36,283 nt of DNA, taken from Halalkalibacter oceani. GTDB lineage: Bacteria > Bacillota > Bacilli > Bacillales > Bacillaceae_D. The number at the start of each line of letters is the position of its first letter. Within the stretch, counting starts at the first letter, position 1. The notes below the pieces were generated by a model. It did not search any database and was not told where the DNA came from. It worked only from the letters and a program-made list of their open reading frames with translations. The stretch lies in NCBI RefSeq assembly GCF_023715605.1, contig NZ_JAMBOL010000033.1, positions 1 through 36,283 of the forward strand, written 5' to 3'. Both the position numbers and the translations under genes were made by a program. Positions 16,356-33,952 of this stretch are shown here, piece by piece.

Positions 16356-16384
16356 TTGAATTTCCAGTCTATATTAGGTATAAT
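16356..16384 (+). promoter_or_regulatory. Sigma-A promoter of the ssDNA-module operon
   Basis: TTGAAT (16356-16361), a 17 nt spacer, and TATAAT (16379-16384). Transcription should start near 16391, giving a leader of about 300 nt before the first gene at 16688. Confidence 0.85.
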
Positions 16385-16390
16385 TAATGC

Positions 16391-16565
16391 ATAATATAGT
16401 TCAACGACTTGGTACCTTCCGATTGCAGAAGGAGGCAAGCAGAAAACACCTTTAACTTATGAACTTCTCTGGATCTATTTTGATCTAGCAAGAAGAAGAT
16501 AAGAATTCGTATTTCGTTAATAATTATTAGTGCCTAAAATGACTTTAGTTTAATAAATCACGCTT
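16391..16565 (+). promoter_or_regulatory. Structured RNA leader, copy A
   Basis: First helix: CTTG 16408-16411 with CAAG 16436-16439, enclosing CCTTC 16415-16419 with GAAGG 16428-16432. Then a U-rich single strand with TTTAACTTAT. Second helix: CTTCT 16464-16468 with AGAAG 16491-16495, extended by CTGGATC/GATCTAG. ACTTGG[T/A]ACCTTCC and GAAGGAGGCAAG are shared with copy D at 33729. A terminator follows at 16566. The order is that of an attenuation leader. Confidence 0.7.
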
Positions 16566-16615
16566 AAAAAGCGCAACAAAAAGGTTTATCTACCTTATTT
16601 GTTGCGCTTTTTTGC
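16566..16615 (+). terminator. Leader terminator, copy A
   Basis: AAAAGCGCAACAAA (16567-16580) pairs with TTTGTTGCGCTTTT (16598-16611), with an inner stem AAGGT/ACCTT (16581-16585/16592-16596), then TTTTTT. It lies before the first gene of the operon, so read-through must be controlled. Confidence 0.85.
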
Positions 16616-16687
16616 GTTTTATAAATAAAGCAAATGGAAGGAGGATATGGTTCATATTTTCAATCAAAAATTGAAAGGAGACTAAAT

Positions 16688-16945
16688 ATGATTATTTTAG
16701 TTTTATCTGAAGAATGTAAACAGACTCTTTCAGTCCATGTCAGATTAAAGGGAGATCAGTTAATGCTTTTTACTGTTCCCCCAGAGGGCTGGTCAGAAAG
16801 GCAACAAGAAGCAATAAAGTACGAAATTGAAAATGAAGGAGCGAGTGCGGTAATTATTGGAGCCGATGTTCCTTTACTTAAAAAAAACCTATATCGGGCC
16901 CAATACGCAGCACCTACTCTAGCACCAAAAGTCTATGAAATTTAA
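16688..16945 (+). CDS. Unknown 85 aa protein, first gene of the ssDNA module
   Basis: Encodes 85 aa from the ATG at 16688, behind GAAAGGAGACTAAAT. A longer reading from 16634 exists but would include this ribosome site. Mixed alpha/beta, with segments such as MIILVLSEECKQTLSVHVRL. No motif recognised. Co-transcribed with the ERF annealase 15 nt downstream. Confidence 0.65.
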   Translation: MIILVLSEECKQTLSVHVRLKGDQLMLFTVPPEGWSERQQEAIKYEIENEGASAVIIGADVPLLKKNLYRAQYAAPTLAPKVYEI

Positions 16946-16960
16946 GGAGGAAGGACTAAC

Positions 16961-18046
16961 ATGAATATTTATAAGAAAATACTTAATGTACAAAAAAAAA
17001 TTGAGGTATTAAAACTAATACCGGGCCAATTACATCCACATGTTCCTATTAGTCAAATCCAAAAAAAAATTAAGCCACTTCTCGAACAAGAAGGGCTTCT
17101 ACTGTTAATGCACAAAAAAGAACATGTCATTCATATCTCACCCTCAGAAGTGAAGAGAAGAAGTAATGGGTTTGAAAAAAAAGAAATAGAGAACCAAATT
17201 CTATTAGAAATCAACATTGATTTTGAATTTATCAATGTGGAAAATCCAGAGGACAAGTTAATTATTCCTTGGTATGGCCAGGGAATAGCAAATGGAACTG
17301 AAAAGGCAGCAGGGCTAGCTTATACCTATGCCGAGAAGACATTTTTTCAGAAACAATTCCATCTTCCTAGTGATGAGATGGATCCTGATGTACGAGGCCA
17401 ATCACTACAGGATGAAGAAGAGGAAGAAACGATTGCGACTGACCAGATCACTGAAATTGGTGACATGCTAGCACAGTTGGTTAAAGCAAGAGGGACGACA
17501 CTCTCTAATTATCTTGAATTCTTAGCTGTATCAAATATTTCTGATATCAGAAGATCTGATTATGAAGAAATAAAAGCTAAGGTATCGAATTGGCTTAAAG
17601 AAGTAGAGGATGAAAACAAGAAAGAGAATGAAAATGCAACCCCTCAAACTAAAACTCAAAAGTCTCCAGAGCCTCCAAGGCAAACAGAATCCCCAACAGT
17701 CGAAAAGTCAAAGGTCAGCGAGATCAGTAACAAAGAGGCCAAGCCTACTTCAGATAAAACGTCAAATAAGACATCTGAGGAATCAGAAAAGGATTCAAGT
17801 GTTTTTACAGCAGAGGTCTCGCTAGTTTCCATTGATCCTGGTATCAGGAACAATGTGCATTATGCAAAATTGATCCTTCTTAATAAGGATAAGACAACTA
17901 TAGCGGCAATCGCTAGAGGAGAAGAGCTTGTCAATTCTTTAGACGAGTTAGGACCTAATGTACTATTTAATGCAAGGCTAGTACAAGAAGGTAACTACTA
18001 TATCCTTAAAAATATGGAACCTAAAAATGAACAACAGGGTGCTTGA
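16961..18046 (+). CDS. ERF-family single-strand annealing protein with C-terminal extension
   Basis: Encodes 361 aa. Residues 1-150 match the ERF pattern: MNIYKKILNVQKKI, the helix of IKPLLEQEGLLLLM, and the signature with Gly-Thr-Glu-Lys-Ala followed by LAYTYAEKTFFQKQFHLP and a D-P-D end. ERF proteins anneal complementary single strands in phage-type recombination. Residues about 165-220 form a helical bundle, 225-285 a Ser/Thr/Lys-rich linker, and 290-355 a strand-rich domain (VFTAEVSLVSIDPG) that may be an OB-like fold. SSB and a CHC2 zinc-finger protein follow in the operon, so it is likely part of a plasmid DNA repair or replication set. Confidence 0.75.
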   Translation: MNIYKKILNVQKKIEVLKLIPGQLHPHVPISQIQKKIKPLLEQEGLLLLMHKKEHVIHISPSEVKRRSNGFEKKEIENQILLEINIDFEFINVENPEDKLIIPWYGQGIANGTEKAAGLAYTYAEKTFFQKQFHLPSDEMDPDVRGQSLQDEEEEETIATDQITEIGDMLAQLVKARGTTLSNYLEFLAVSNISDIRRSDYEEIKAKVSNWLKEVEDENKKENENATPQTKTQKSPEPPRQTESPTVEKSKVSEISNKEAKPTSDKTSNKTSEESEKDSSVFTAEVSLVSIDPGIRNNVHYAKLILLNKDKTTIAAIARGEELVNSLDELGPNVLFNARLVQEGNYYILKNMEPKNEQQGA

Positions 18047-18048
18047 TT

Positions 18049-18393
18049 ATGCTGCAACTTCGTGATGACATTTCATGCTACAAAGACAGTGATGACAAAG
18101 TCTTTATGTTCGCCTTTTTTTCACTTGCTTACCAAAAAGCAGGGCAGCATGCCTTGCCTTATAGGGTTATCGTACAAGTTGAAAAATTAGCAAATGATTT
18201 ATTTGTAACACATGAGTGTCCCGTTAATTGCATGCAGGCATCATTACCTTGTTGGCATACGCAAAAAGCTCTTCAATTATATCTTTCTATCACAAATGAA
18301 AGGTATGAAGACATTGTGTATGAAAACAGAAGAGTACTATTATCACCAAATATGATTTTATTAAAGGAAGGCGACCTAAATGGGATTACCTAG
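18049..18393 (+). CDS. Small protein with SWIM-like zinc finger
   Basis: Encodes 114 aa from the ATG at 18049, 2 nt after the ERF stop, behind AGGGTG. The middle has strands leading to CPVNCMQASLPCWH, a C-x3-C-x6-C-x-H pattern close to the SWIM zinc finger (CxCxnCxH) but with a wider first spacing. SWIM domains bind DNA or protein and accompany recombination factors such as Shu2/Sws1 and some SNF2 helicases. Assignment is tentative. Its last 14 bases overlap the next gene. Confidence 0.6.
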   Translation: MLQLRDDISCYKDSDDKVFMFAFFSLAYQKAGQHALPYRVIVQVEKLANDLFVTHECPVNCMQASLPCWHTQKALQLYLSITNERYEDIVYENRRVLLSPNMILLKEGDLNGIT

Positions 18394-19132
18394 TATCATT
18401 AAAGTGGCTGAAGAGTATTCAGTAGATATTAATCCTACAACACTTAATAAAAAAGAAGTGTTGGCAAGATGTCCATTTTGTCAATCAAGACAATTTAAAT
18501 TGTCTATGAACAATGATAAGAACACCTTTCGTTGCTGGCGAAGCAGTTGTAATGAAAGTGGAGGGGTCCTTCATTTTGAAACACTTTTAAAAATGAATGA
18601 AGACAACTCTGAATATAATCAAACTTATAAAAAAATTAAATCAAAGTACTTTGGTCTGAAAAAGAAGAATAAGGCTCATCCTGCTGAATTTTTGACACCA
18701 AAACAATTGGAGGTCATTCAGTGGAAAGAGGCAAAAAGAGAGTCCTGGAACTACTTCAGAAAGCATATGGGACATATTTTTCAGGACTGGCAGCAGCATT
18801 GTCATCTTCATTATCGTACTGCTTTCGCTAAGTTAGTCGTAGGTGAAGCAATTGGAAAATATGAATTGGCGATTGATAGTATCCGGCGCCAGCAAAAGGA
18901 ACAGGAGATAACTGATTTACTCGATAAAACACTCGAAGTGTTTTCGACAGATTGGTTATCTGAACCGTGGTCAGTAGAAGGGCTATTATTGGCCAGAAGT
19001 GCCTTACGTTTGTGCGTGGAAGACAAGTCTAAAGAAAATGGCTTACTCTATGTGATATTTCTATCAGTAGAACAAGAAGAGAATATTCAATCAAATAATA
19101 GCGAGCATCAGCAATTAGCTGGTGTACTATAA
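18380..19132 (+). CDS. CHC2-type zinc-finger protein (primase-like N-terminus)
   Basis: Encodes 250 aa. The start overlaps the upstream gene and uses AAGGAAGGCGACC. Residues about 31-66 match the DnaG CHC2 zinc finger: CPFC, then FRCWRSSC and GGVLHFE. The rest (about 80-250) is helical and lacks the Toprim catalytic motifs of primase. It may read DNA sequence for another polymerase or load a helicase. Its place between the ERF annealase and SSB points to replication or recombination of the element. Confidence 0.75.
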
Positions 19133-19146
19133 GGAGGAAAAAACAC

Positions 19147-19608
19147 ATGTTAAACAGAGTAGTTCTTGTTGGTCGATTAACTAGAGATCCTGAGCTTCGT
19201 TATACGCCAAACGGTGTTGCTGTAACAAATTTCACTCTAGCGGTAAACCGTCCCTTCACGAATAACGAAGGAGAACGTGCAGCTGATTTTGTCAATTGTG
19301 TCGTATGGCGGAAGCCTGCTGAAAATGTGGCAAACTACCTGAAAAAAGGTAGCCTGGCTGGGATAGATGGCAGAATTCAAACACGAAGCTATGACAACAA
19401 TGAAGGCCGTCGTGTCTTTGTAACAGAGGTTGTCGCAGACAGTGTTCAATTTCTTGATACTCGTACTTCTAATAGTGGTGGTAACGGTAGCCAAGGAAAT
19501 GGCGGTAACAAGCAGCAGTCTAACCAACAGCAATTTGGGGGATTTAATGAGGATCCTTTTAACGATTCTGCTCCTATCGATATATCCGATGATGATTTAC
19601 CATTTTAG
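19147..19608 (+). CDS. ssb: Single-stranded DNA-binding protein
   Basis: Encodes 153 aa with AAGGAGG before the ATG. Residues 1-105 are the SSB OB fold ([50 protein letters not shown]). A Gly/Asn/Gln-rich linker follows, and the acidic tip DDDLPF at the end is the docking site for RecO, PriA, RadC-linked and other partners. Slightly shorter than chromosomal SsbA, as plasmid copies often are. It likely coats the incoming single strand and works with the ERF protein. Confidence 0.97.
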
Positions 19609-19836
19609 CCAGTGCAAAAGTGAGTAATCTAAATTTTGCTCATATTTCCTTGTAAATAAAGGTTTTGTACTTGTTTTAGTGGTGAGTAAAAAAGGAATCA
19701 AAAATGGAAATATAAGTATAGACAATGACTTGGTATTAAAAGATACCACATTTAGTAACCTGTCGTTCTATAAAGGTGTGGCAGAGTAAAAAAAATAACA
19801 AATCCGCCTTCCTCTTCGGCGTAAAACAAGATGGTT
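19609..19836. other. Gap between SSB and RadC genes
   Basis: No gene. GCAAAA/TTTTGC near 19613-19640 could form a weak hairpin after ssb. GGTATT-AAAA-GATACC (near 19732-19747) and CGCC-TTCCTCTTC-GGCG (near 19805-19821) are further short stems. The stretch looks like an RNA leader for radC rather than coding sequence. Confidence 0.4.
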
Positions 19837-19865
19837 CATACTTCGCCATCTTGTGGCGAAGTATG
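19837..19865 (+). promoter_or_regulatory. Strong hairpin in front of radC
   Basis: CATACTTCGCC (19837-19847) and GGCGAAGTATG (19855-19865) form a perfect 11 bp stem with loop ATCTTGT. It ends 5 nt before GGAG of the radC ribosome site. There is no T run, so it is not a terminator; it could protect the mRNA or change ribosome access. Confidence 0.75.
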
Positions 19866-19880
19866 CGAAGGAGAAAAAGT

Positions 19881-20525
19881 ATGATTAATGAAATTCGTGA
19901 AAAAGTAAGTATGTATGGATATGAGAATACTAGTTTAAATGAAATTCTAACGTTAATTATCGGGGAATCAGCTAGCATGAATAATTTATCGAGTCTTTCC
20001 GTTAATGACTTACTCTTAATGAGTGAGTCTGACTTTAAAAGCATTGAGGGAATTGGCCCCCGGAAGGCAGAAATACTGGTTGCTACTGTCGCATTAGCAA
20101 AAAAACTGCTGCAAGTTAATTCTAATTCAAATAAACTATGTATCAGGTCCCCGGAGGACATGTTTAATTATCCAGGGTTAAAAACCATGGCACTTGAAAC
20201 CCAAGAAGTAGTCAAAGTATTTACATTAAATACAAGAAACTTTATAACGGGAGAAAAAGTAGTCTTTAAAGGCACACTAAATACTTCCCTAATGCACCCT
20301 AGAGAAATTTTGTTGTTTGCATTGAGTAAGAATGCTGCTTCAGTAATAGTTGCGCATAATCATCCATCCGGTGATCCGACGCCGACCCGAGAAGATATTG
20401 AGGTCACGAGACGATTATTCGAAGCAGGGAAAGTAATTGGGATTGAAGTACTTGATCATATTGTAGTAGGAGATCATCGATGTATCTCAATTAAAGAAAT
20501 GGAGAATATGCGATGTGTTATATAA
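19881..20525 (+). CDS. radC: RadC-like JAB-domain protein
   Basis: Encodes 214 aa. The ATG at 19881 follows GAAGGAGAAAAAGT; upstream extension to 19776 would read through the leader hairpin. The N-terminal helix-hairpin-helix (SIEGIGPRKAEILVA, about 53-68) binds DNA. The JAB domain has AHNHPSGDPTPTREDI (about 152-167) with zinc ligands His-x-His and Asp, then HIVVGD. RadC-like proteins are frequent on mobile elements next to SSB; their DNA role is not settled. Confidence 0.93.
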   Translation: MINEIREKVSMYGYENTSLNEILTLIIGESASMNNLSSLSVNDLLLMSESDFKSIEGIGPRKAEILVATVALAKKLLQVNSNSNKLCIRSPEDMFNYPGLKTMALETQEVVKVFTLNTRNFITGEKVVFKGTLNTSLMHPREILLFALSKNAASVIVAHNHPSGDPTPTREDIEVTRRLFEAGKVIGIEVLDHIVVGDHRCISIKEMENMRCVI

Positions 20526-20665
20526 AGCATCTACAAAAAGTGTCTACTCGCAAAAATTCTCAGGCTATCATTGCTCTCATGATTTTAGGAGCAATAGAAC
20601 TGGGAGATGTTAGTCATCTAAAGAAGATCGACATTTCCCATCTAAAAAGAAACATTATTATCTAA
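20513..20665 (+). CDS. Small protein overlapping the end of radC
   Basis: A 50 aa ORF, MCYIKHLQKVSTRKNSQAII and onward, starting inside the last codons of radC in another frame with GGAG 8 nt upstream. Predicted helical with a basic start. The 13 nt overlap suggests translational coupling. Unknown function. Confidence 0.5.
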   Translation: MCYIKHLQKVSTRKNSQAIIALMILGAIELGDVSHLKKIDISHLKRNIII

Positions 20666-20683
20666 AATAAATATAAAAATTAG

Positions 20684-20718
20684 AAAGACAGCATCCCTAT
20701 TGGATGGTGTCTTTCGTC
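20684..20718 (+). terminator. Hairpin, probable terminator after the ssDNA module
   Basis: AAAGACAGCATCC (20684-20696) and GGATGGTGTCTTT (20702-20714) pair over 13 positions with one mismatch. The T run is short (CTTTCG), so termination may be partial and the next gene may still be reached. Confidence 0.55.
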
Positions 20719-20739
20719 AATTATAAGGAGGAAAAAAGG

Positions 20740-21522
20740 ATGAATACTAATAATGTAAATGCAGGAGAAATGATGGAAATGTTTTGGCGTACAGGTTACC
20801 CTGAGCTTCGCCAGCAAGAAGATATTAAAACAAAGGCAACTGAAAAATTAGAACAGCTGCTTTATCATAGATCGGAAAATCCAATCGTCTATGGCGATTT
20901 AGGATATGCTGTTTCGTTCAAACCAAAACACACCTATAATACAGATTGGGAGTCTTTAAATAGATTTTTGATGGAGGTAGGGATTTATCCGCTAGTTGCT
21001 GATCTTAAGCAAGATACGCCGGATAAATTTCCAGAGATATGCAAAATGTTTGAGCTTCCTAAAAAAGATATCTTAAGTTTTAGCGTGAACAAAGTTGGCA
21101 AACAGTTGTTGTCTCATTCAATTGCTTTACCATCTAATGAGTATGAATTATTAAAAATAATTAAGCAATCTGATAGCATTATTGTACCTCTATCTGAGAT
21201 GTATAGAAATCTGAAAGTAAAGATGCAAAATTGTCCAACTTTACTAGAAGAACGAAAGATCTCTCACAAATATGGAAGTGTGTACCTAAAAAAGGATAAG
21301 GTCCGATATGACATTGAAACAATGTTAAATGTTATAGGAACGGATTTTTTTATCAAACACGGAAAACCAAACTCCAAAAAATTATATGCCTTTATAAAAA
21401 GAGGCATAATAAAAAATGAGCAGATTGAACAGTTTAGAACCATTACTAATTCAAAGGTACGGTTAGAGGTTAATCGTATAGATAATAAAACGAGAGTTAC
21501 TTCAAAACAAATGGTAATATAG
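20740..21522 (+). CDS. Unknown 260 aa protein
   Basis: Encodes 260 aa. The ATG at 20740 has AAGGAGG 8 nt upstream; reading from 20704 would include the hairpin. Starts MNTNNVNAGEMMEMFWRTGY. Soluble, mixed alpha/beta, basic C-terminal third (RLEVNRIDNKTRVTSKQMVI). No membrane helix, cysteine cluster or nucleotide motif. Not recognised. The helical N-terminal part and basic tail would suit a DNA-binding protein, which is a guess. Confidence 0.65.
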   Translation: MNTNNVNAGEMMEMFWRTGYPELRQQEDIKTKATEKLEQLLYHRSENPIVYGDLGYAVSFKPKHTYNTDWESLNRFLMEVGIYPLVADLKQDTPDKFPEICKMFELPKKDILSFSVNKVGKQLLSHSIALPSNEYELLKIIKQSDSIIVPLSEMYRNLKVKMQNCPTLLEERKISHKYGSVYLKKDKVRYDIETMLNVIGTDFFIKHGKPNSKKLYAFIKRGIIKNEQIEQFRTITNSKVRLEVNRIDNKTRVTSKQMVI

Positions 21523-21700
21523 CATAGATCTTGCTAAAAGGGCTAAGCCGGTACCTGTTTAATCTCAAAGTGAAATCATCTCTAAAAGAAGAAAAGTTCG
21601 CCAAGAGAAAATAAACGCAGTAAAACAGATGGTGAAAAATAGTGACTTCTTAAATGGGAAGAAATAGTATTAATATTCGAGAAATATTCAAAACTATACT
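21523..21700. other. Gap before leader copy B
   Basis: No supported gene. Several stops in every frame; fragments such as SKREKINAVKQMVKNSDFLN suggest a decayed gene. No clear terminator follows the 260 aa gene. Confidence 0.35.
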
Positions 21701-21728
21701 TTGCTAGAGATAAAAACAATGTTAAAAT
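21701..21728 (+). promoter_or_regulatory. Sigma-A promoter of the MoxR/VWA operon
   Basis: TTGCTA (21701-21706), 16 nt spacer, TAAAAT (21723-21728). Expected start near 21735, about 15 nt before the first conserved leader helix, as in copies A and D. Confidence 0.65.
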
Positions 21729-21734
21729 GAGACT

Positions 21735-21919
21735 AATCATAATTAATTTAACTTGTACCTTCTCACCCAAAAGGTGAACCGAAGGATGAAGATGCTTATT
21801 TAGTTATCACTCCATATACTTCTCTAATTATGCTAGAAGAGAATGGAGTAGGGTTATTGGGGAATTAAACAAAAAGGGATTTCTATGCCTAATGGCATAA
21901 TCTAATATCACGACGCTTC
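21735..21919 (+). promoter_or_regulatory. Structured RNA leader, copy B
   Basis: Starts with ACTTGTACC. First helix: CCTTC 21758-21762 with GAAGG 21781-21785, with an added inner stem TCACC/GGTGA (21763-21767/21773-21777). Second helix: ACTCCAT 21809-21815 with ATGGAGT 21843-21849, enclosing CTTCT 21819-21823 with AGAAG 21835-21839. The outer CTTG/CAAG pairing of copy A is lost here. A terminator follows. Confidence 0.65.
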
Positions 21920-21966
21920 AAGCGCATCGAAAAGGATGAATCACTCCTTATCGGTGCGCTTTTTTG
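21920..21966 (+). terminator. Leader terminator, copy B
   Basis: AAGCGCATCGA (21920-21930) with TCGGTGCGCTT (21951-21961), a single unpaired A on each side, then inner stem AAGGA/TCCTT (21932-21936/21945-21949), then TTTTTT. Same build as the terminator of copy C. Confidence 0.88.
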
Positions 21967-21994
21967 CGTTGACAAAAAAATGGAGGAAAAGAAA

Positions 21995-22939
21995 ATGACG
22001 AAAAATTTTAATTTGAATGATGTTGCAGCAATTCACGGGAACGAAACAGAACAAAATTTATTCGGGTACTTATGCTGGTACTCAGTGTCTGAAGGGTTAT
22101 ATAACAGAGAGCAAATAAGAGATTCTCTGCATAAATCCGGGTTAGCGGATTCGTTCATGCCAAAACGTATACGCCCTGCTGATGCATTCAGAAGGGCGAC
22201 AAAGCTCATTGAAAAAAACAGCCAAATGGAAGATGAAAAGACAGGCATTGTGGATCAGTATTTAATTCGCCATGTGACAAGTTCTAATACGATTACCCAA
22301 AGAAATATAGTAAGAGAAAGGAGAGATTCGCAGGGGCGTTCATTGCATTACAATAGTAGTGCCGGTATTCTCGTTTTTAATAAAGATAACGAGGATTTTC
22401 TGATCGAACAAACCGAGAACGATCATGTAAGAGATTTAGCAGAATTTGCCAAATCTCAATATGAGATATTTTTAAACCATCATAATGGTGGCGCAATAAG
22501 AAATATGACACTTAATATTCTTAAACAAATGGCTCCTCTTCCTGTACGACCATCCGGAGGCATTTACTTCGTACCTGTAAAATACGAAGAAATGCTAAAG
22601 AAGGTGGTAGAATTTTTAAAATACCTCGAAACATCAGGAGGGAACGGAGGAGAAGGATTCATGGTTCCTCTAATCAATACGGAAGATAATAAGGATATGC
22701 TGCGCTCTAAAATCGATGCGCACTTGCAAACGACATTAGAAAGGTGTCAAGCACTGATGAGTAATAACAAGGAAATACCAAAAAATATTATCAAAGAGCA
22801 AATTGATGATGCAAAACGTATTATCGGTGACTTCAAGGATTATCGGTCCCTTGTAACAGGGGCTGTAGACAGCATGGAAGATAAGATTGAAGCCATCAGA
22901 CAGCAAGTACAAACCTTATTAATTGATAAACTTAAATAA
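21995..22939 (+). CDS. Unknown 314 aa protein preceding MoxR and VWA genes
   Basis: Encodes 314 aa. The ATG at 21995 follows GGAGG at 21982-21986; an ATG at 21980 is too early for that site. The protein is soluble, with a helical C-terminal half (coil from about 235) and segments such as RPADAFRRATKLIEKNSQME and LPVRPSGGIYFVPVKYEEML. It recalls uncharacterised phage/plasmid families such as DUF6744, an unsure match. First in an operon with a MoxR ATPase and VWA protein, so probably their partner or client. Confidence 0.65.
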   Translation: MTKNFNLNDVAAIHGNETEQNLFGYLCWYSVSEGLYNREQIRDSLHKSGLADSFMPKRIRPADAFRRATKLIEKNSQMEDEKTGIVDQYLIRHVTSSNTITQRNIVRERRDSQGRSLHYNSSAGILVFNKDNEDFLIEQTENDHVRDLAEFAKSQYEIFLNHHNGGAIRNMTLNILKQMAPLPVRPSGGIYFVPVKYEEMLKKVVEFLKYLETSGGNGGEGFMVPLINTEDNKDMLRSKIDAHLQTTLERCQALMSNNKEIPKNIIKEQIDDAKRIIGDFKDYRSLVTGAVDSMEDKIEAIRQQVQTLLIDKLK

Positions 22940-25714: not shown

Positions 25715-26170
25715 ATGAAACAAGAAGTATTTCTACTTAACAAAAAAGTACGCCTTTTTGGTGATGAATATGTCAATGTGCATATAAAAGAAGCACGAAT
25801 TATTGATGAGGCAAACAATATAGGAGATTTTAAAGGTCAAATCGATATCGTTTATCCTTTCGCTGGTTATGATTTAGATTTAACATTAGATATTCACATC
25901 GAAAAAGCATCTGATGATTGGATATGGGAGACTGACGCAGTATTCAGAGTTCCCTTTTCGGAAGAAATAATCACACTTAATGAACTATACCACGACAGTT
26001 TTCATAAGCTAGAGGAAAAAAAGTGTCGAAATATAATTATAGATTATGGAAAGTGTTCATGTGGGGGCTCGTTGTGGCCCATGTATGATGAGTTTCCTAG
26101 GTGGATTCATTACTGCGACAGTTGTGATACCAGGCAAGAAGAGCCTGGCTATTCACCGCTGGCAAATTAA
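25715..26170 (+). CDS. Zinc-ribbon protein, copy 1 of a duplicated gene
   Basis: Encodes 151 aa. Residues 1-95 are strand-rich (VNVHIKEARIID, GQIDIVYPFAGY, RVPFSEEIITLNELY); residues about 116-142 hold a zinc ribbon, CSCGG and CDSC. It is clearly homologous to the gene at 27154, with long identical runs, for example VHIKEARII and RVPFSEEIITL. A methylase gene lies between the two copies. Family not recognised. Confidence 0.75.
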   Translation: MKQEVFLLNKKVRLFGDEYVNVHIKEARIIDEANNIGDFKGQIDIVYPFAGYDLDLTLDIHIEKASDDWIWETDAVFRVPFSEEIITLNELYHDSFHKLEEKKCRNIIIDYGKCSCGGSLWPMYDEFPRWIHYCDSCDTRQEEPGYSPLAN

Positions 26171-26191
26171 AAAATTGCAATATAGGGTGGA

Positions 26192-27134: not shown

Positions 27135-27153
27135 AAAAATAGGGGGTTTGGTC

Positions 27154-27597
27154 ATGAAACATGAAGTATTTCAATTTGAAAAACGTGTACACCTTATAGG
27201 TGATGAATATGTCTATGTGCATATAAAAGAAGCACGAATCATTGAAGAGGCAAGCAATAAAGGAGATTTTATAGGACAAATTGATATTGTTTATCCATTT
27301 GCTGGTTATAATCTAGAATTAACATTAGATATTACCATGGATAAATCGAGCGTAGAGTGGGAATGGGACGCCGGTTTCAGAGTTCCATTTTCGGAAGAAA
27401 TAATCACACTTAGTGAACTATATTTAGAACAACAAATGATATTAGAATACGAAAAGTACGAAACTAGGAATTATGAAAAGTGCTCTTGTGGTGGTTACAT
27501 GATGCCAATGTATGACGAGTTTCCTAGTTGGATTCATTACTGCGACACGTGTGATTGTAGGAATGAAAATTACGATCACTCACCATTGCCATATTAA
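27154..27597 (+). CDS. Zinc-ribbon protein, copy 2 of a duplicated gene
   Basis: Encodes 147 aa from the ATG at 27154 behind AGGGGGTTTGGTC. It is a paralogue of the gene at 25715 over its full length, with the same strand-rich N-terminal domain and a C-terminal ribbon (CSCGG and CDTC). Copies differ mostly between residues 65 and 115. The last residues SPL(A/P) are kept. Probably the two paralogues have different partners. Confidence 0.75.
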   Translation: MKHEVFQFEKRVHLIGDEYVYVHIKEARIIEEASNKGDFIGQIDIVYPFAGYNLELTLDITMDKSSVEWEWDAGFRVPFSEEIITLSELYLEQQMILEYEKYETRNYEKCSCGGYMMPMYDEFPSWIHYCDTCDCRNENYDHSPLPY

Positions 27598-27698
27598 ACA
27601 GAAGGGTGAAGTTATTGGATTATTACCAGTCACTTTATCATTTATATGGAAAATAAACAAAAAAGGGAACTTTAATATTAATTTTAAGGAGGATTATC

Positions 27699-27890
27699 AT
27701 GAAAGAGTTCAGCATTGAACGGATGAAAAAATTAGAAGAGCATGATGCATATGTAAGGTGGTTGGTAAAAGACTTAAAAAGAAGAAACCCCTCTACAAGT
27801 TTAGAGGAAATAATGAAAATAGTTTTCAACACAATCATGGAAGATCGTCATATGCTAGCAGCTTACAACTCACTAGAGACAGGGAAGTAA
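27699..27890 (+). CDS. Small helical protein, unknown
   Basis: Encodes 63 aa with AAGGAGGATTATC before the ATG. Starts MKEFSIERMKKLEEHDAYVR; wholly helical, charged. No family recognised. Sits 15 nt before the DUF5983-like gene. Confidence 0.6.
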   Translation: MKEFSIERMKKLEEHDAYVRWLVKDLKRRNPSTSLEEIMKIVFNTIMEDRHMLAAYNSLETGK

Positions 27891-27905
27891 AAGGAGGAAT
27901 TTAGA

Positions 27906-28184: not shown

Positions 28185-28190
28185 TGGGGG

Positions 28191-28215
28191 CCCCTACTTG
28201 GTAGGGGTTCTTTTT
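28191..28215 (+). terminator. Intrinsic terminator of the MoxR/VWA operon
   Basis: CCCCTAC-TTG-GTAGGGG (28191-28207), then TTCTTTTT. Confidence 0.85.
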
Positions 28216-28236
28216 CGGTCAAACGTATGCTATAAT
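28208..28236 (+). promoter_or_regulatory. Promoter of the methylase/helicase operon
   Basis: Extended -10 TGCTATAAT (28228-28236); the -35 (TTCTTT, 28208-28213) is weak and overlaps the upstream terminator tail. Confidence 0.7.
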
Positions 28237-28242
28237 TTCTAT

Positions 28243-28421
28243 ATGTAGTTTATTGATTAACTGAATTCTCCTTTCTGTACCGGAAAGCAGGGATAAGTCA
28301 GTGTTGCTTTAAATTCTTATTTGGGTACATACATTCCGATTGTTCGCTGAATGAAAGTGACCTGTTTATTCAAAACATTCTATACTAAAACATGACCATT
28401 TTGTCTTATATATAACGCAAT
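28243..28421 (+). promoter_or_regulatory. Structured RNA leader, copy C (divergent)
   Basis: ACTGA 28260-28264 pairs with TCAGT 28298-28302 and encloses CTTTC 28271-28275 with GAAAG 28283-28287. A U-rich strand with TTTAAATTCTTAT follows, then CATTC 28332-28336 with GAATG 28349-28353. All three helices differ in sequence from copies A and D but keep position and pairing. Terminator at 28422. Confidence 0.6.
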
Positions 28422-28468
28422 AGGCGTATCGAAAATCATGATTTGTGATTATCGATACGCCTTTTTTG
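28422..28468 (+). terminator. Leader terminator, copy C
   Basis: GGCGTATCGA (28423-28432) with TCGATACGCC (28452-28461), one unpaired A on each side, inner stem AATCA/TGATT, then TTTTTT. Same architecture as the terminator of copy B. Confidence 0.88.
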
Positions 28469-28504
28469 CGTTTTTATAAATCTAAATTACTAGGAGGAGG
28501 GGAA

Positions 28505-28777
28505 ATGGACACAAACCAGTTGCAAGTTGTCTCACTTCCAATCATATCGACTGATTGGGGAGAGGCTAATTGGAACCCGATGGTCAGGGCCTATGGTATT
28601 AAAACAGGAAGAAGGGCGAAGTGTAAATCGTGTGTATTCCTTAAAAAAACTCAAGGAATGTATACATGCAGCCTTCAACTTCCTATACACCACAATCCTG
28701 ACTGGCGCGCTTGTTTGCGCTACGAAAAAAAAAGAAAAAAAGAAAGGATGTTGGAAAATGGCAAGGTTAGCATCTGA
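28505..28777 (+). CDS. Small cysteine-rich protein
   Basis: Encodes 90 aa; ATG 28505 behind AGGAGGAGGGGAA. Central cysteines CKSC, then C in YTCSLQ and C in WRACLRY, arranged C-x2-C-x10-C-x17-C, suit a small zinc or iron-sulfur site. Basic C-terminus (KKRKKERM). It overlaps the next gene by 20 nt. Resembles short Cys proteins found beside phage methylases; not identified. Confidence 0.65.
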   Translation: MDTNQLQVVSLPIISTDWGEANWNPMVRAYGIKTGRRAKCKSCVFLKKTQGMYTCSLQLPIHHNPDWRACLRYEKKRKKERMLENGKVSI

Positions 28778-29810
28778 GGCAAAAGCAGGTTTTTACCCTA
28801 CACCGATTATAGAAATGGAGCTTATATGCAGTAAACTAAAAATACCACATAATCAGACACAAGAAACTTATAATATTTTGGATCCGTGCGCAGGTATGGG
28901 AGATGCGATCGTGGTGGCCCAGCGAGCCTTGAGTCAGTCCGGTGCTACTGTAAAGTCATATGGGATTGAAATTGAAGAAACAAGAGCGATCGCAGCCCAG
29001 GGTAAAGTCGATAGCCTACTTCATTGTAGCTATGACGAAGCACGAATGTCACAGGAAGCATTTTCGCTTCTATACCTTAATCCTCCGTTTCAAGAAATGG
29101 GGGGAGAAAGGATGGAAAAAATCTTCTTGGAGGATTTAACAGAGGATAGACTTGGTCCTGGAGGAATCCTAGTGTTCAATATTCCTCAGCCTATTTTAAA
29201 AAAATGCGCTAAGCTTTTAGCCAGCCGCTTTATTGATTTATCTGTCTACCGATTTACTGATGATCACTTTGATGCATACAAGCAAGTGATTGTATTTGGA
29301 CGGAGGCGTCAAAAAGGCTTTAGAAAAGAACATGAAAGAGCATATCAACAAAAAATGGAGGAAAGGTTGCAAGTCATTTCTCAAATGCCAAAGGATAAAC
29401 TACCTAGCCTTGATCGAGTAGATGATATCGTTTATGAGCTATCACCGGCACCTAAAAAATTGATGTCATTTTACTCTACTAAAGTTACTATGAATGATAT
29501 TTTAAATAACCAGGGTCTTGACCAGGAGGTCAAGTTATTGATTCGAGACTTCGAAGAAGTCCAAAATAACACAAAAAAATTAGAACCAGCGTTGCCTTTG
29601 CAGACGGCTCATTTAGCAGCTGCACTTCAATCAGGTTATGTTCCTGAACAAATGGGAGCAGATCACCTGCTGGTAAGTCGTACACAACATGTAGAGTCAG
29701 AGCGTACTCAGATAAGCGCTCGAAGCGAAAAGGAGCAAAGAGTCACAACTTATAGTACCAAAAACACGATGCGTATTTTTTCAAAAAAAGGCATCGTAGA
29801 CTTAGGGTAA
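28758..29810 (+). CDS. DUF6094-like N6-adenine methyltransferase
   Basis: Encodes 350 aa. ATG 28758 follows AAAGGATG; longer readings upstream run through the previous gene in another frame. FYPTP (12-16), motif I LDPCAGMGDA (41-50) and catalytic NPPF (108-111) mark a class I SAM-dependent N6-adenine methylase with early gamma-type order. The last 120 residues are helical and charged. Such methylases are regular neighbours of large SNF2 helicases on Gram-positive mobile elements, as here. Confidence 0.82.
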   Translation: MARLASEAKAGFYPTPIIEMELICSKLKIPHNQTQETYNILDPCAGMGDAIVVAQRALSQSGATVKSYGIEIEETRAIAAQGKVDSLLHCSYDEARMSQEAFSLLYLNPPFQEMGGERMEKIFLEDLTEDRLGPGGILVFNIPQPILKKCAKLLASRFIDLSVYRFTDDHFDAYKQVIVFGRRRQKGFRKEHERAYQQKMEERLQVISQMPKDKLPSLDRVDDIVYELSPAPKKLMSFYSTKVTMNDILNNQGLDQEVKLLIRDFEEVQNNTKKLEPALPLQTAHLAAALQSGYVPEQMGADHLLVSRTQHVESERTQISARSEKEQRVTTYSTKNTMRIFSKKGIVDLG

Positions 29811-29824
29811 GGAGGATCTTAAAT

Positions 29825-29911
29825 ATGAATTATATGACTTTAGAGGAATCTAAAAAGCCTTGGAGCAAGGTGACAGAGTGCTATTTCACTATTACGTTGT
29901 TATGGCCATAG
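29825..29911 (+). CDS. Tiny ORF after the methylase
   Basis: A 28 aa ORF, MNYMTLEESKKPWSKVTECY and a short end, with AAGGAGG at 29809-29815. May be a real peptide, a leader, or the start of a truncated gene. No family. Confidence 0.35.
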   Translation: MNYMTLEESKKPWSKVTECYFTITLLWP

Positions 29912-29982
29912 GTTAGATGTAAGGCATGTTACTAGACTTTCGAGTTTACTAAACTAAAAATACCAATATTTATAATACAAAG
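29912..29982. other. Gap with a possible internal promoter
   Basis: TATAAT near 29971-29976 lacks a good -35, so an internal promoter before the helicase is possible but weak. No gene. Confidence 0.3.
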
Positions 29983-30070
29983 GAGGGAAGCCCTTCCTGT
30001 TCAGAAAGCTAGTGAACAGAGAGGGGCATTCCCTTATCTCTGTTCATCAACCTGAACAGAGGGCATATGA
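29983..30070 (+). promoter_or_regulatory. Four-segment RNA switch over the helicase ribosome site
   Basis: Segment 1 CTGTTCA (29997-30003), segment 2 TGAACAGAGA (30013-30022), segment 3 TCTCTGTTCA (30037-30046), segment 4 TGAACAGAG (30053-30061). 1 pairs with 2, 2 with 3, or 3 with 4, each perfectly over 7-10 bp, so the folds exclude each other. Segment 4 carries AGAGGG, the ribosome site of the helicase at 30071. Fold 3:4 should block translation and fold 2:3 free it. Confidence 0.7.
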
Positions 30071-30074
30071 ATGA
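30012..30074 (+). CDS. Possible 20 aa leader peptide of the helicase gene
   Basis: A GTG at 30012 opens MNREGHSLISVHQPEQRAYE; its TGA overlaps the helicase ATG (ATGA). Ribosomes on it would disrupt segments 2 and 3 of the RNA switch. The start has no strong ribosome site (AAAGGAGGG is 20 nt away), so translation is unproven. Confidence 0.35.
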   Translation: MNREGHSLISVHQPEQRAYE

Positions 30075-33000
30075 AGAAAATTCGAATTAACGAAGATGGT
30101 AAGACGTTTGAAGCGTATGTAAAGATGTTAATTTTAGACGGAGATGTATTAGTAGGTTGTTCATTTGCAGGAACAGCTGTAGCTGTACGGTCGATACATG
30201 CCTCCTTCTACAACATTGGCACTAGAATCGAAGTCATTGATGAGACAACCGGTCAAATATCTTACTATACAAGTACAACAAGGTATCGTCGTGTCGAAGA
30301 AGTGGTAGGGCGTGTCGTTCACTGCTTCATGTTACCAAGATCCGCGGTTCTACGTGAGTTTCAAGCGAGTCTTGCAGAGAATATGAAAGCTGCTCAAAAT
30401 ACGCTAAAAAGTAATAAGGACAAATCTAAAAAGTTTGATTATTCATATCCAGAACGAGTTGTCATAGCTCGTAAAGGCAATATTAATCAAGTGGCAGGGC
30501 GCTTCATTGCCAAAACGTTTGGCCTTCCCCAAAAGGAAGCTTGGAGTAATAAATATATTGAGTTGTTGCAAGAGAAAATAACAAAGCTATCTATTATAAC
30601 AACCAATTTGGCTGGAGAGTGGGACCAGGCCGAAGCTCTTCGTATCCATTCTTTAAAAGAAAAAGAAGTCCTGGAGATAATTGAAAAAGAAATACAAAGT
30701 GGACGTTTAAATCCGGAATCAAATGCGCCATACATTATAAAAAGTGAACAAGCGATTTATAATGCCGGCATGACGACTGAGCAATATCTCAGGAAAAATG
30801 CTAAAGCCTTAGCAAGTAAACTTGAGCATTATATTCGACCAACTTATAAAGGGGATCATTACTTACCTTATATTGGTCAGACTGAACGAGTATGCGTTCC
30901 TGCTCAAGCTAAAATTGTAATGGGTATGCATGAAACCCTTAAGAAGAAAAAAGGAGTCATATGCGTATCTGATATGGGAACCGGCAAGACACAAATGTCG
31001 TTAACTACAGTCTTTACGGCAGCGAAAAAGCGAGCAGAAGATAAAAACATTAAAGATGAATTTCGTGCATTAATAATTGCCCCGTCCAATGTTATTCCTA
31101 AATGGTCTGAATCAGAGATTCCTACGGTATTAGGGAAAAGTAAGACTGTTTGGGTTACTCCTGGGGAGTTGTCTGCCTTCAAAAAAAATGAACGACGTTT
31201 TAAATTTTCTCAACGGTTTATTGTGACGACGATTGAGTCAACAGACGATGCTCTTAAATATGTTCAAGCAGTTAGAAGTGGATGGACAGTTCCATCTCGA
31301 ATGATCCATTTTGTCTTAATTAGTATGGACCGTATGAAATACGGTGCGATGAAGTATGTATTTGCTGGTAGATGGGATCCGGTGAGGAATGTGTGGAGAT
31401 CTCCAGAGACCAATCAGGCATTACAAATTCCGCCATCCCAAAAACAACTGAAAAGAAAAAAACGAGCAGCTGATGAGCACGCTGGTTGGAGTGATATCGT
31501 CATCAGTCCAAAACACCCCCCAACATTACATCAAATTCAAGAAGCTAGGAAAAAAGGTACCCTTGCTCCTAATCAATTACCAAAAGGGTATGTGCAAAAA
31601 TGGTCTGAGGATATACGGGCGATTCAAGAAGTATATTTTAAACCGGATAAAACAAAAGCAAAAAAACATTGTACTTTATACCGGCCGGCCCAAGCTAAGT
31701 GGGGAGAGATGAAAGGATCTCATCGATGGATGATTGCACAAATTTTTCAAAAAAAATTGCCAAATCACTTTCATATTGGCATTTTCGATGAAGTCCATAA
31801 AATGCACTCTACAGAGTCTGGACGGGGTGCTGCGTTTCATAAAATATTGAAATCTTGCCGGAAATCTATCTTATTAACTGGAACATTAACAAATGGGGAG
31901 AGTTCAAGTATCTTTGGAATCCTATGGCGACTTTTTCCAGGAGAATTAATTAATGCCGGATTCAGTTATGAAACGTCCAAAGAGGCTTGGGCGTATCGCT
32001 ACGGTACAGTAGAGAGGATTGTCACCTTGGACAAGGGTGGTCGAGACTTAGGGGCCACTACGAATCGAGTGAAGGACCAGGTGCAAATTAAAGAAAAACC
32101 AGGGATAAGCCCAGAGTTAATTGCTAATCATCTACTTGATAAATGCGTTTTCATGAATTTACCGGACCTGCAGATTCCTTTAGTAGAATTGGAAGAAAGG
32201 CCGATCCTTATTAAGTTGGATGACGATCATTATGAGGAATACCAAAGGTTACAAAAAGAGTTGTATTCAACATGCCAAAGCTTAACCAAAATGGTTGGTA
32301 CCGGTGCTTGGGCCAAATACCATCCCGCAACTTTGAATTATGCGGATCAACCTTCTAAGGGTGTCAAAATAGAATGGTATCCAAAAGGTGTGAAAAAGGA
32401 CCAAACGAATCACTTAGGTAAGGTGGAAGCTCCTTCTTTTCCTGAATCCTACCTACCGGCTAAGGAAAGAACCCTTATTGATCTAGTGAAAAGTGAACTT
32501 GCTCAAGATCGTCCATGTGTAATTTATAATCATTTCACTGGTAAATCAGGGGAATACCAAACTAATCAGCGTTTGAAAAAAACATTGACTGATCAAGGTA
32601 TAAAATGCAAGATCCTTGATGAAGGTGTGCCATCACACAAGAGATTTGAATGGCTGGAGGAACAGGTCAAATTAGAAACAAAAGTAATTATTACAAATAT
32701 GAAACTGGTAGAGGTAGGGTTAGACCTTATTTATTATCCAACCTATATCTATTTTCAACTTTGTGATGAAATTAGTATTTTACGTCAGTCATCCAGGAGG
32801 GGTTTTAGACTAGGGCAACCGAAGAAGTGTAAGGTGTTCTTCTTGGTCAATGAGAAAACAACTCAAATGGAACAGTTTGTTCGCTTAATGAGTAGAAGAA
32901 TTGCTGCCCTAATTGCTGAAGGACGGATGGAAAGATCTAATGAACTGGCCAAATTCGCAAATGTTGCATCTAGCGGCATTACTAATGAGCTATCTCAAGA

Positions 33001-33439
33001 GCTTGAAAAGGCGGATATTAAACAAATGTGGGCGGATGTAGCAGCTCATGATTTAGATGATGAGCTTCGTCTTATTAGCGAAGCTGACTTTAAAGAAAAG
33101 ATAAGTGCTGCATTCAGAAACCTTACAGCAGAAACTAAACGCTTAACGGGGGTTAAGGAAATTGATCCTTTCGCTGAATTAACAGATGAAGAATTGGATT
33201 TGGCACTAAGTGTTTTTGATGATGTCAATTTCGAAGTTGAGCCTGAGGATATTGATATAAGTGAAGAAAAGGATGCCGAAGTTGAGGTGTTTTCCGAAGC
33301 GAAAAGTACTAAAAATGATCAGTCTCATGAAAAGAAAAATGAAATTGTTGAATATAAGGTGGAGGTTGAACCTTATAATCTTCAGAGTAAAGAAAAAATT
33401 CGTTTTGAGCAGCAATCTTTGTTCGATTTTGCGAATTAA
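30071..33439 (+). CDS. SNF2-type (superfamily 2) DNA helicase/translocase
   Basis: Encodes 1122 aa. An N-terminal region of about 280 residues precedes the motor: Walker A DMGTGKT (about 299), Walker B DEVH (about 573, the SNF2 DEAH position), LLTGTLTNGE (about 599), then the second RecA lobe with GVDL-like EVGLDL (about 880) and motif VI RQSSRRGFRLGQ (about 905-916). A long insert of about 110 residues (KKRKKRAADEHAG region) lies between motifs. The acidic tail ends in QQSLFDFAN, which resembles a sliding-clamp (PCNA/DnaN) binding motif (QxxLFxF). With the methylase upstream, this looks like the mobile-element methylase-helicase pair; role in DNA maintenance or defence is inference. Confidence 0.88.
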   Translation: MKKIRINEDGKTFEAYVKMLILDGDVLVGCSFAGTAVAVRSIHASFYNIGTRIEVIDETTGQISYYTSTTRYRRVEEVVGRVVHCFMLPRSAVLREFQASLAENMKAAQNTLKSNKDKSKKFDYSYPERVVIARKGNINQVAGRFIAKTFGLPQKEAWSNKYIELLQEKITKLSIITTNLAGEWDQAEALRIHSLKEKEVLEIIEKEIQSGRLNPESNAPYIIKSEQAIYNAGMTTEQYLRKNAKALASKLEHYIRPTYKGDHYLPYIGQTERVCVPAQAKIVMGMHETLKKKKGVICVSDMGTGKTQMSLTTVFTAAKKRAEDKNIKDEFRALIIAPSNVIPKWSESEIPTVLGKSKTVWVTPGELSAFKKNERRFKFSQRFIVTTIESTDDALKYVQAVRSGWTVPSRMIHFVLISMDRMKYGAMKYVFAGRWDPVRNVWRSPETNQALQIPPSQKQLKRKKRAADEHAGWSDIVISPKHPPTLHQIQEARKKGTLAPNQLPKGYVQKWSEDIRAIQEVYFKPDKTKAKKHCTLYRPAQAKWGEMKGSHRWMIAQIFQKKLPNHFHIGIFDEVHKMHSTESGRGAAFHKILKSCRKSILLTGTLTNGESSSIFGILWRLFPGELINAGFSYETSKEAWAYRYGTVERIVTLDKGGRDLGATTNRVKDQVQIKEKPGISPELIANHLLDKCVFMNLPDLQIPLVELEERPILIKLDDDHYEEYQRLQKELYSTCQSLTKMVGTGAWAKYHPATLNYADQPSKGVKIEWYPKGVKKDQTNHLGKVEAPSFPESYLPAKERTLIDLVKSELAQDRPCVIYNHFTGKSGEYQTNQRLKKTLTDQGIKCKILDEGVPSHKRFEWLEEQVKLETKVIITNMKLVEVGLDLIYYPTYIYFQLCDEISILRQSSRRGFRLGQPKKCKVFFLVNEKTTQMEQFVRLMSRRIAALIAEGRMERSNELAKFANVASSGITNELSQELEKADIKQMWADVAAHDLDDELRLISEADFKEKISAAFRNLTAETKRLTGVKEIDPFAELTDEELDLALSVFDDVNFEVEPEDIDISEEKDAEVEVFSEAKSTKNDQSHEKKNEIVEYKVEVEPYNLQSKEKIRFEQQSLFDFAN

Positions 33440-33446
33440 ACCATTT

Positions 33447-33476
33447 GGCGTTCAGATTTGTTCTGAACGCCTTTAC
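33447..33476 (+). terminator. Hairpin after the helicase gene
   Basis: GGCGTTCAG (33447-33455) with CTGAACGCC (33463-33471), perfect 9 bp, then TTTACTT. A moderate terminator that still allows some read-through to the next small gene. Confidence 0.65.
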
Positions 33477-33504
33477 TTAAATAGTTTATTAGGGAGATTT
33501 CACT

Positions 33505-33648
33505 ATGTATAAAAGCGATGCCTTAAAAGCATATCGAAAAATTAAAACCGCTGAACACTCTTATCAAGCTTATCGGTATATTGAAAGACTAAGTCCTAAC
33601 ATTGCGAAAGAAGTGCTTTTATTATTGGTGGCACGTAAGCATCAATAG
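33505..33648 (+). CDS. Small basic helical protein
   Basis: Encodes 47 aa, MYKSDALKAYRKIKTAEHSY and onward, with AGGGAG 9 nt before the ATG. Helical and basic. Not recognised. Stands between the helicase terminator and the next promoter. Confidence 0.5.
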   Translation: MYKSDALKAYRKIKTAEHSYQAYRYIERLSPNIAKEVLLLLVARKHQ

Positions 33649-33674
33649 CAACCATTATTATTTGCTTCTAGGCA

Positions 33675-33703
33675 TTGAGAAGGGAAGAGCCTTGGTTTAT
33701 ACT
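33675..33703 (+). promoter_or_regulatory. Sigma-A promoter before leader copy D
   Basis: TTGAGA (33675-33680), 17 nt spacer, TATACT (33698-33703); start expected near 33710. Confidence 0.75.
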
Positions 33704-33709
33704 GAGAGT

Positions 33710-33911
33710 AGATAACTTTCTCTCTGAAACTTGGAACCTTCCATTTTGTTTTTTGCTGAAGGAGGCAAGTTATGTAGGTATGATTTTAAACTTATATGCA
33801 CTTCTCGATCCTAATGTTCGCCAGAAGACGATATGAGTTCATTCGTTAAATAGTTAGACAATCATGGGATTATTATGCATGTATAGCATATCCAAATATA
33901 AAAAGCTTTAG
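33710..33911 (+). promoter_or_regulatory. Structured RNA leader, copy D
   Basis: ACTTG 33729-33733 pairs with CAAGT 33766-33770 and encloses CCTTC 33737-33741 with GAAGG 33758-33762. A U-rich strand with TTTTAAACTTAT follows, then CTTCT 33801-33805 with AGAAG 33823-33827. GAAGGAGGCAAG is identical to copy A, and AGAAGA-x-GATA plus TTCGTTAA after the second helix are also shared. Confidence 0.7.
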
Positions 33912-33952
33912 AGCCTGACAAAATTTATTATAAAATTCTGTCAGGCTTTTTG
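33912..33952 (+). terminator. Leader terminator, copy D
   Basis: AGCCTGACA (33912-33920) with TGTCAGGCT (33939-33947), perfect 9 bp, AAATTT/AAAATT-like inner pairing, then TTTTT. It stands 32 nt before the gene at 33984. Confidence 0.88.

Follow-up and report, generated by a model that had tools for sequence, protein, structure and literature searches.

How the operons of a large mobile element might be switched on together is the question raised by a 36,283-nt stretch of DNA from Halalkalibacter oceani (NZ_JAMBOL010000033.1; hereafter the window), which is the whole of contig C51 of a 4.47 Mb draft genome. The window encodes proteins of a mobile element, namely a topoisomerase, a TraG-like coupling protein, an S1-domain protein, ERF, a CHC2 zinc-finger protein, RadC, DUF6744, MoxR, VWA and DUF6094 proteins and a large helicase. 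According to an initial annotation of the sequence, four operons share one structured RNA leader ending in an intrinsic terminator. A promoter-like sequence, a leader and a strong terminator are indeed present at all four sites (leaders C1, C2, C3 and C4, from 16391, 21735, 28243 and 33710, respectively), and the terminators fold with z values of -5.2 to -8.7. The best explanation that we can offer, with about an even chance of being right, is that a NusG paralog encoded by the element is loaded through the leader and would antiterminate several operons.

Structure of the leader RNA

A fifth copy, leader C5, was located by BLAST with leader C1 as the query against the same genome. It lies on contig C40 (L006:9875-10095), where promoter, leader and terminator can all be read. 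Leaders C1, C2, C4 and C5 have a common architecture of two hairpins (P1 and P2) with 15-17 nt between them, and the conserved part is about 100 nt long. In each hairpin, a 3x3 internal loop (5'-RNA/ANR-3') separates the outer helix (3-9 bp) from an inner helix of 5 bp, which is CCUUC/GAAGG or CUUCU/AGAAG. Across the four copies, the loops are GUA/AGG, GUA/AGG, GAA/AGG and GUA/AUG in P1, and GAA/AAG, GUA/AUG, GCA/ACG and AUA/AGA in P2. The U-rich strand of the initial annotation corresponds to the 15-17 nt linker together with the 5' outer strand of P2. P1 starts about 17-20 nt past the predicted transcription start site in all five leaders.

A descriptor of the two hairpins was matched by leaders C1, C2, C4 and C5, and by 0, 0, 2 and 1 of 2000 dinucleotide shuffles, respectively (3/8000). 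When both strands of the window were scanned, only leaders C1, C2 and C4 were found. The scan of L006 gave leader C5, a pair overlapping C5 and one other, and L008 and L009 gave one pair each; the background in shuffled sequences is 0-2 pairs each. These extra pairs lie away from leaders or overlap C5, and were set aside. A covariance model, R1, was trained on leaders C1, C4 and C5, leaving C2 as the sole untrained copy among the four, and R1 recovers C2 at 35.8 bits (E 4e-5). Standard pairs occupy 97.5% of the pair cells of the four copies (38-65% in slid controls), and both-side changes are observed in 7 of 20 pairs, all in outer helices (at most 2 in slid controls), in an alignment that was fitted to R1 and thus favours the structure. 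The inner helices are invariant and are uninformative on covariation. The minimum free energies of the isolated leaders are ordinary compared with shuffles (z -0.1 to -1.6). Thus, the evidence for the structure comes from covariation and recurrence rather than from folding energy.

The common structure is firm in leaders C1, C2 and C4 as well as in C5, and weak in C3, to which the initial annotation had also extended it. Leader C3 does not match the two-hairpin descriptor; R1 scores it at 11.3 bits (E 0.015 in 451 nt), at the expected position. By blastn (E 0.01), neither C2 nor C3 has a match to any other copy in its leader part. It is likely but unproven that C3 is a degenerate leader copy.

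All features of the four leaders lie on the plus strand. The promoters of C1, C2 and C4 are predicted purely from consensus matches, and the hairpins of these leaders are supported by the descriptor, the covariance model and the pair counts. Leader C1 follows a promoter at 16356-16384 (TTGAAT-17-TATAAT) and contains P1 at 16408-16439 (CTTG-[GTA]-CCTTC(8)GAAGG-[AGG]-CAAG), P2 at 16456-16503 (CTTAT-[GAA]-CTTCT(22)AGAAG-[AAG]-ATAAG) and a terminator at 16566-16615, with a T tract from 16608 and then GCGTT. The likely start codon of the ERF/CHC2/SSB operon, read from the sequence as are those after C2 and C3, is at 16688; the frame at 19147 is read as SSB, a reading backed by annotated SSBs in relatives. 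Leader C2 has a promoter at 21701-21728 (TTGCTA-16-TAAAAT, with TG before the -10), P1 at 21752-21791 (CTT-[GTA]-CCTTC(18)GAAGG-[ATG]-AAG), P2 at 21809-21849 (ACTCCAT-[ATA]-CTTCT(11)AGAAG-[AGA]-ATGGAGT) and a terminator at 21916-21966 (T tract from 21960), and the DUF6744-MoxR-VWA operon likely starts at 21995. In the case of leader C3, an extended -10 (TGCTATAAT, 28228-28236) without a clear -35 was read from the sequence. Its P1 at 28260-28302 is degenerate, with an ACTGA..TCAGT outer helix, and its P2 at 28324-28362 (GGTAC-[ATA]-CATTC...GAATG-[AAA]-GTGACC, with a bulged G) is also weak; the terminator is at 28418-28468 (T tract from 28462), and the likely start codon of the DUF6094 methylase/helicase operon is at 28505. 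Leader C4 has a promoter at 33675-33703 (TTGAGA-17-TATACT), P1 at 33728-33771 (AACTTG-[GAA]-CCTTC(16)GAAGG-[AGG]-CAAGTT), P2 at 33789-33839 (AACTTATAT-[GCA]-CTTCT(17)AGAAG-[ACG]-ATATGAGTT) and a terminator at 33908-33952 (T tract from 33947), followed by the start codon of a 339-aa protein with no Pfam match at 33984.

Relation between leader and terminator

The duplex between each of the five leaders and the 5' arm of its terminator was compared with 300 mononucleotide shuffles, and was matched or beaten in 94, 205, 280, 121 and 236 of them. None of the five leaders has an antiterminator segment for its own terminator beyond shuffles. A mutually exclusive attenuation is therefore unlikely, and classical attenuation was set aside.

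Searches for the leader class

None of the 4227 Rfam families reached its gathering threshold in the window or, apart from a group II intron in L007, in the related loci described below. None of the leader classes examined matched at the Rfam threshold in either, and the correspondence to an Rfam motif of Bacillus plasmids, which had been thought possible, was not found. The leader class of the window gave no match in 397 other genomes of the class with strict filters, and was absent from PLSDB by blastn. A sample of 396 further genomes of the order, which overlaps with that of the class, gave one match, in G092 (31.5 bits, E 0.008); it was rejected as chance, being a terminator between chromosomal genes. 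Two R1 matches in L007 (21.3 and 15.0 bits) lie away from the L007 leaders and were also taken as chance. Nothing was found in viral contigs with the helicase protein, and DUF6744 occurs within the family in the own genome only (n=41). The covariance-model check proposed in the initial annotation thus gave covarying outer helices and a fifth copy, and no convincing copy in the other genomes sampled. In the open-licence literature, we found neither a description of such leaders nor a mention of DUF6744.

Leaders in related elements

DUF6744 was found in 19 of 398 genomes of the class, the own genome included. Leaders of other sequence are located upstream of DUF6744 in G488, G449, G641, G682, G422, G666, G642 (equated with the B. 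marinus genome on the basis of identical coordinates) and G498. Seven of the ten related element sets fetched contain 3-6 copies of their own leader type, mostly unrelated in sequence between elements. According to BLAST within the fetched stretches, G488, G682 and G666 have three copies each and G422 has five; a search of the whole G422 genome also gave five matches, all inside the element and within about 87 kb. Four copies (one partial) are present in B. laterosporus pAZOBL1, and three in B. marinus, which are weakly similar (one BLAST match and shared short blocks). The P. asahii CK1 plasmid has six, at L007 14602, 19553, 26054, 27705 and 38148 and at L048:33946 on the minus strand, one of them known from BLAST only. 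In the five P. asahii copies that were read, the outer helix varies between copies and the UCC..GGA apex is constant. The P. asahii leaders form a distinct class with long terminators and no Rfam match, and no NusG paralog is recognisable on this plasmid.

The placement of the leaders is conserved. In G488, G682, G666, G422, B. laterosporus and B. marinus, copies are found upstream of the CHC2/SSB genes and at DUF6744, the same placement that the window shows, with operon starts deduced from gene positions, and the remaining copies precede other genes. Leader sequence is shared between elements (E 0.01) only in the pairs G666/G682, G449/Cohnella L039 and G641/G609. In G682, G666 and B. laterosporus, a single leader is separated from its gene by two terminators. 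Terminators ending in TTTTTTGCG were observed five times in P. asahii, at three of the four window sites and at C5; the C4 terminator is the exception.

A mechanical screen for repeated leaders gave clusters of at least three terminators in G488, G682, G422, G666 and B. laterosporus. The G422 cluster adds L077:14485, which was unseen by BLAST, and omits the copy at DUF6744. One unrelated pair was obtained in B. marinus and pairs only in P. asahii, and no cluster of at least three in the own genome, G641, G449, G498 and G443, nor in G778, G622 (one cluster of two), G701 and G764, which are negative for the NusG paralog described below. The limit on the distance to the gene is one possible cause of misses (the gene after C5 is about 195 nt away).

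Two further features were seen in these loci. The Brevibacillus plasmid leaders (L008 3200-3590, 12810-13345 and 19480-19960; L009 12880-13290 and 19470-19980) are about 390-540 nt long, have conserved blocks and no Rfam match, and are possibly interesting structured RNAs. G449 has a second DUF6744-MoxR-VWA operon (L093; G449:C67:12083-12952) with no leader directly upstream.

NusG paralog of the element

A search of the own genome with PF02357 gave the housekeeping NusG on contig C35 and a divergent paralog on contig C67 (C67:12518-13234); a third match, on contig C28, was below the cut-off (E 0.4). The C67 paralog scores 22.2 bits in the genome search, over the cut-off (gathering 22.2), and 20.4 bits as a called protein. 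Its homologues contain the NGN domain of PF02357 at 25.6-38.4 bits, and the C67 protein matches the G488 paralog with a BLAST E of 1e-12. The B. marinus plasmid has one PF02357 match above the cut-off, and the B. laterosporus plasmid has one below. Paralogs of the NusG type are present in 11 of the 19 DUF6744 carriers.

The co-occurrence was also counted in a class sample of 101 genomes, all of which were searched for DUF6744 as judged from their handles. NGN paralogs of 22-38 bits over the cut-off were detected in 5 of 8 DUF6744 carriers and in 0 of 93 other genomes (Fisher 7e-7). Among the genomes without DUF6744, G123 (21.3 bits) and G438 (18.0 bits) have matches below the cut-off. The paralog of G496 appeared only in the search of DUF6744 carriers, not in that of the 101 genomes. 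In G422, G666, G682 and the B. marinus plasmid, the paralog and DUF6744 are located in one record, about 66-102 kb apart. The gene order is also similar: in B. marinus a gene annotated as NusG family follows a sigma-like helix-turn-helix (HTH) protein, with an HTH regulator nearby, and contig C67 has the row HTH, 150-aa protein and NGN protein in the same order. Twelve members of the NGN family were aligned and a profile was built. With this profile, no member was found in G498, G440, G778, G622, G701, G614, G693, G764 and the P. asahii plasmid, where the matches are the housekeeping NusG (31-39 bits) and two under 14 bits.

Eight of the nine carriers whose DUF6744 has a leader also have the paralog, compared with two of the nine that lack the leader (p 0.015), as scored by eye and with G609, whose leader turned up later, counted as leader-negative; G496 (a DUF6744 fragment) and the second, leaderless DUF6744 copy of G449 were left out. 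Because the paralogs of G609 and G641 share 57% identity, a leader of the G641 type was expected in G609. Such a leader was found about 1.1 kb upstream of DUF6744, with 74% identity and a terminator behind it. A search for the G422 leader in G496, whose paralog is 39% identical, gave no relative. Among nine elements, a leader class is common to only 2 of 36 pairs, which are those with an NGN identity of 57% or more and also those with the most similar DUF6744 (74-78%). The NGN identity is below the DUF6744 identity in every pair with BLAST segments for both, some of them short. The leader class appears to follow the NGN paralog, in a pattern that general relatedness can explain.

Possible mechanism and alternatives

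We propose that the leader would act in cis as an RNA loading site where an operon begins, and that the intrinsic terminator behind it would act in vivo and block the operon by default. A control module with a phage-type HTH repressor and HTH genes, a protein of about 150 aa and the NusG paralog with its NGN domain (here the borderline match at C67:12518-13234) would provide the antiterminator, and contigs C67 and C51 would belong to one replicon. The antiterminator would join RNA polymerase once both hairpins with their 3x3 loops have emerged, presumably by touching them. Then the modified polymerase would pass the leader terminator, and probably later ones in a processive manner, and several operons would be switched on together. 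The default-off terminators, the NusG paralog, the kept placement with sequence turnover and the tandem terminators fit antitermination set by the nascent RNA, as shown for LoaP (PMC12691694). A switch acting on one terminator would not cover the three relatives with tandem terminators behind one leader.

The initial annotation had suggested a plasmid-wide regulon with a common signal. The element-wide arrangement holds and recurs in the relatives; the regulation itself is predicted from sequence. Of the signals offered, a small molecule is least likely because no sequence is shared at the same operons except in close pairs and there is no antiterminator segment, and an antiterminator protein of the element fits best because many such elements encode a NusG paralog. 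A broader proposal, for which the chance is a little short of even, is that the DUF6744 elements of Bacilli carry a new family of NusG paralogs, each member with its own fast-diverging multi-copy leader, and thus have orthogonal, element-specific antitermination regulons. If this is true, the replication/single-stranded DNA, MoxR-VWA and helicase operons are under one switch and come on together; from element to element, the RNA-protein pair is exchanged, whereas the operons and leader positions persist. Multi-operon switching by large plasmids and integrated elements of Bacilli would then be explained, uncharacterised NusG paralogs would be tied to RNA targets readable from sequence, and natural protein/RNA pairs would be provided for studying how NusG paralogs choose operons.

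Several observations weigh against the NusG paralog as the antiterminator. The P. asahii plasmid, with six leaders, has no NGN protein by Pfam or the family profile in a search of the plasmid alone; a leader set is thus possible where the same plasmid encodes no recognisable NusG paralog. G498 also has a leader and no family member by the profile. The 32 kb fetched from G443, which has an NGN protein, yielded no repeated leader. Three of the 93 genomes that lack DUF6744 (G490, G502 and G514) contain a second NGN protein of a different kind (47-57 bits). Contigs C67 and C51 are separate, and no overlap of their ends was found. In the window there is one terminator per leader, and few sense-strand terminators are located inside the operons. 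The sharing of leaders tracks overall relatedness, so co-evolution with the NGN protein is not proved. In the fetched stretches, G449 and G498 have one copy and G641 has two (one partial). The presence of a leader at DUF6744 was scored by eye, and the copies of the own genome, G641 and B. marinus escaped the mechanical screen.

Processive antitermination by RNA alone, as with put, EAR and canT of Tn916, with no element protein and with regulation at the promoter, would agree with the leaders of the P. asahii plasmid and G498 without NGN protein, with hairpin P1 some 17-20 nt past the predicted start and with the tandem terminators in relatives. The known RNA antiterminators include canT from an integrative and conjugative element (an excerpt of PMC11658703). 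We consider this unlikely, though it deserves attention: the co-occurrence of the NGN paralog and the predicted G609 leader would be left unexplained, and conservation here covers a short stretch of about 100 nt. Rather doubtful, in our estimate, is that antitermination depends on another trans factor, such as a host RNA-binding protein that reads the two similar 3x3 loops, the protein of about 150 aa encoded before the NusG paralog or the S1-domain protein (13466-14332, plus strand). The gene of the last adjoins that of TraG and is kept in related elements. By tblastn, nine of the ten element sets contain the S1 protein, seven of them with a match better than E 1e-30. The matches are weaker in G498, where the end of the stretch cuts it, and in P. 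asahii, both without an NGN protein found, and none was obtained in the fetched parts of G449. Two similar hairpins also suggest a dimer or a two-site protein. On the other hand, the S1 protein is conserved while the leaders are mostly unshared, and a fast-evolving partner fits better; the NGN identity is lower than that of DUF6744 wherever both gave BLAST segments.

The order of promoter, structured RNA, terminator and gene is that of a riboswitch leader, and local attenuation, in which a ligand or protein refolds the leader and decides whether the terminator forms, would produce it. This is improbable given the lack of antiterminator complementarity in 5 of 5 leaders, the two terminators behind one leader in three relatives, the little leader sequence shared at the same operons and the lack of an Rfam match. 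Equally remote from our expectation, or slightly more so, is that the terminators are merely insulators that stop read-through from upstream, with weak or constitutive leader promoters and hairpins that protect mRNA or mark recombination repeats. Insulation by terminators is described for Tn916 in the excerpt of PMC11658703; here the terminators are downstream of the leader promoters and would silence the operon, and the outer helices are kept through both-side changes.

Comparison with known systems

LoaP is a specialised NusG paralog used with a small leader hairpin and an intrinsic terminator before the first gene, and its dfn and mln operons in Bacillus resemble the present case in the NusG paralog, the leader hairpin and the leader terminator (PMC12691694, in part). 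LoaP has a UNCG hairpin and two antibiotic operons, whereas two 3x3-loop hairpins and four or five mobile-element operons are found here. Unlike LoaP, the C67 protein has a long C-terminal part, and the leaders differ between elements. No UNCG hairpin with at least three closing pairs is present in the five leaders; UNCG words in C1, C3, C4 and C5 have at most two closing pairs, and C2 has no such word. Against the LoaP model NF033641 (cut-off 125), the C67 protein scores 23.8 bits, three of four relatives score 24-28 bits and the fourth gave none, and UpxY (cut-off 100) gave 24.2 bits in the NCBIfam search.

In phage lambda, one element protein, N, acts on like RNA sites (nut) in several operons. 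N is no relative of NusG, and the hairpins here are unlike boxB. On our best reading, the system described here would resemble LoaP or lambda N/nut, but would serve several operons and diverge fast. N-type antitermination at nut RNA sites is also named in the excerpt of PMC11658703. Compared by description, conAn of pLS20-type conjugative plasmids is similar in being antitermination of a Gram-positive conjugative element with a protein and an RNA (PMC8955417, in part). canT, EAR and put are leader RNAs that let polymerase pass terminators; EAR and put are described as acting without protein factors and canT as an antiterminator RNA, whereas several copies per element and a frequent NGN protein are observed here. 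ActX, RfaH, UpxY and TaA are NusG paralogs that serve operons which are long or were acquired horizontally, and ActX is found on plasmids (PMC7819879, in part). RfaH recognises the ops DNA element (the excerpt of PMC12691694), whereas the proposed site here is the leader RNA.

Other features of the contigs

Contig C67 (L015) has genes like a defence set at 427-3762. These nucleotidyltransferase, E1/E2-like and JAB genes resemble a set of the CBASS type, and the 3' end of the contig resembles the start of a group II intron. On contig C40, the stretch 1-17999 (L112) contains genes for metal resistance of the cadC/cadA type together with a Tn7-like set for transposition, as read from the translations.

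In the window, an Rfam match to RsaD below threshold (34062-34214, minus strand; 33.3 bits, gathering 50, E 0.014) is antisense to the 339-aa gene and is probably due to chance. A very strong terminator (-33 kcal/mol) is located at 10617-10662; about 17 nt separate it from the ribosome-binding site of the next gene downstream of topA. It has no leader of the C1-C5 class and no good promoter was seen nearby, and it is possibly an intra-operon terminator ahead of the TraG genes. A 150-aa gene is duplicated at 25715-26171 and 27148-27598, and the two copies, with 82% DNA identity over 215 nt, flank a DNA methylase gene.

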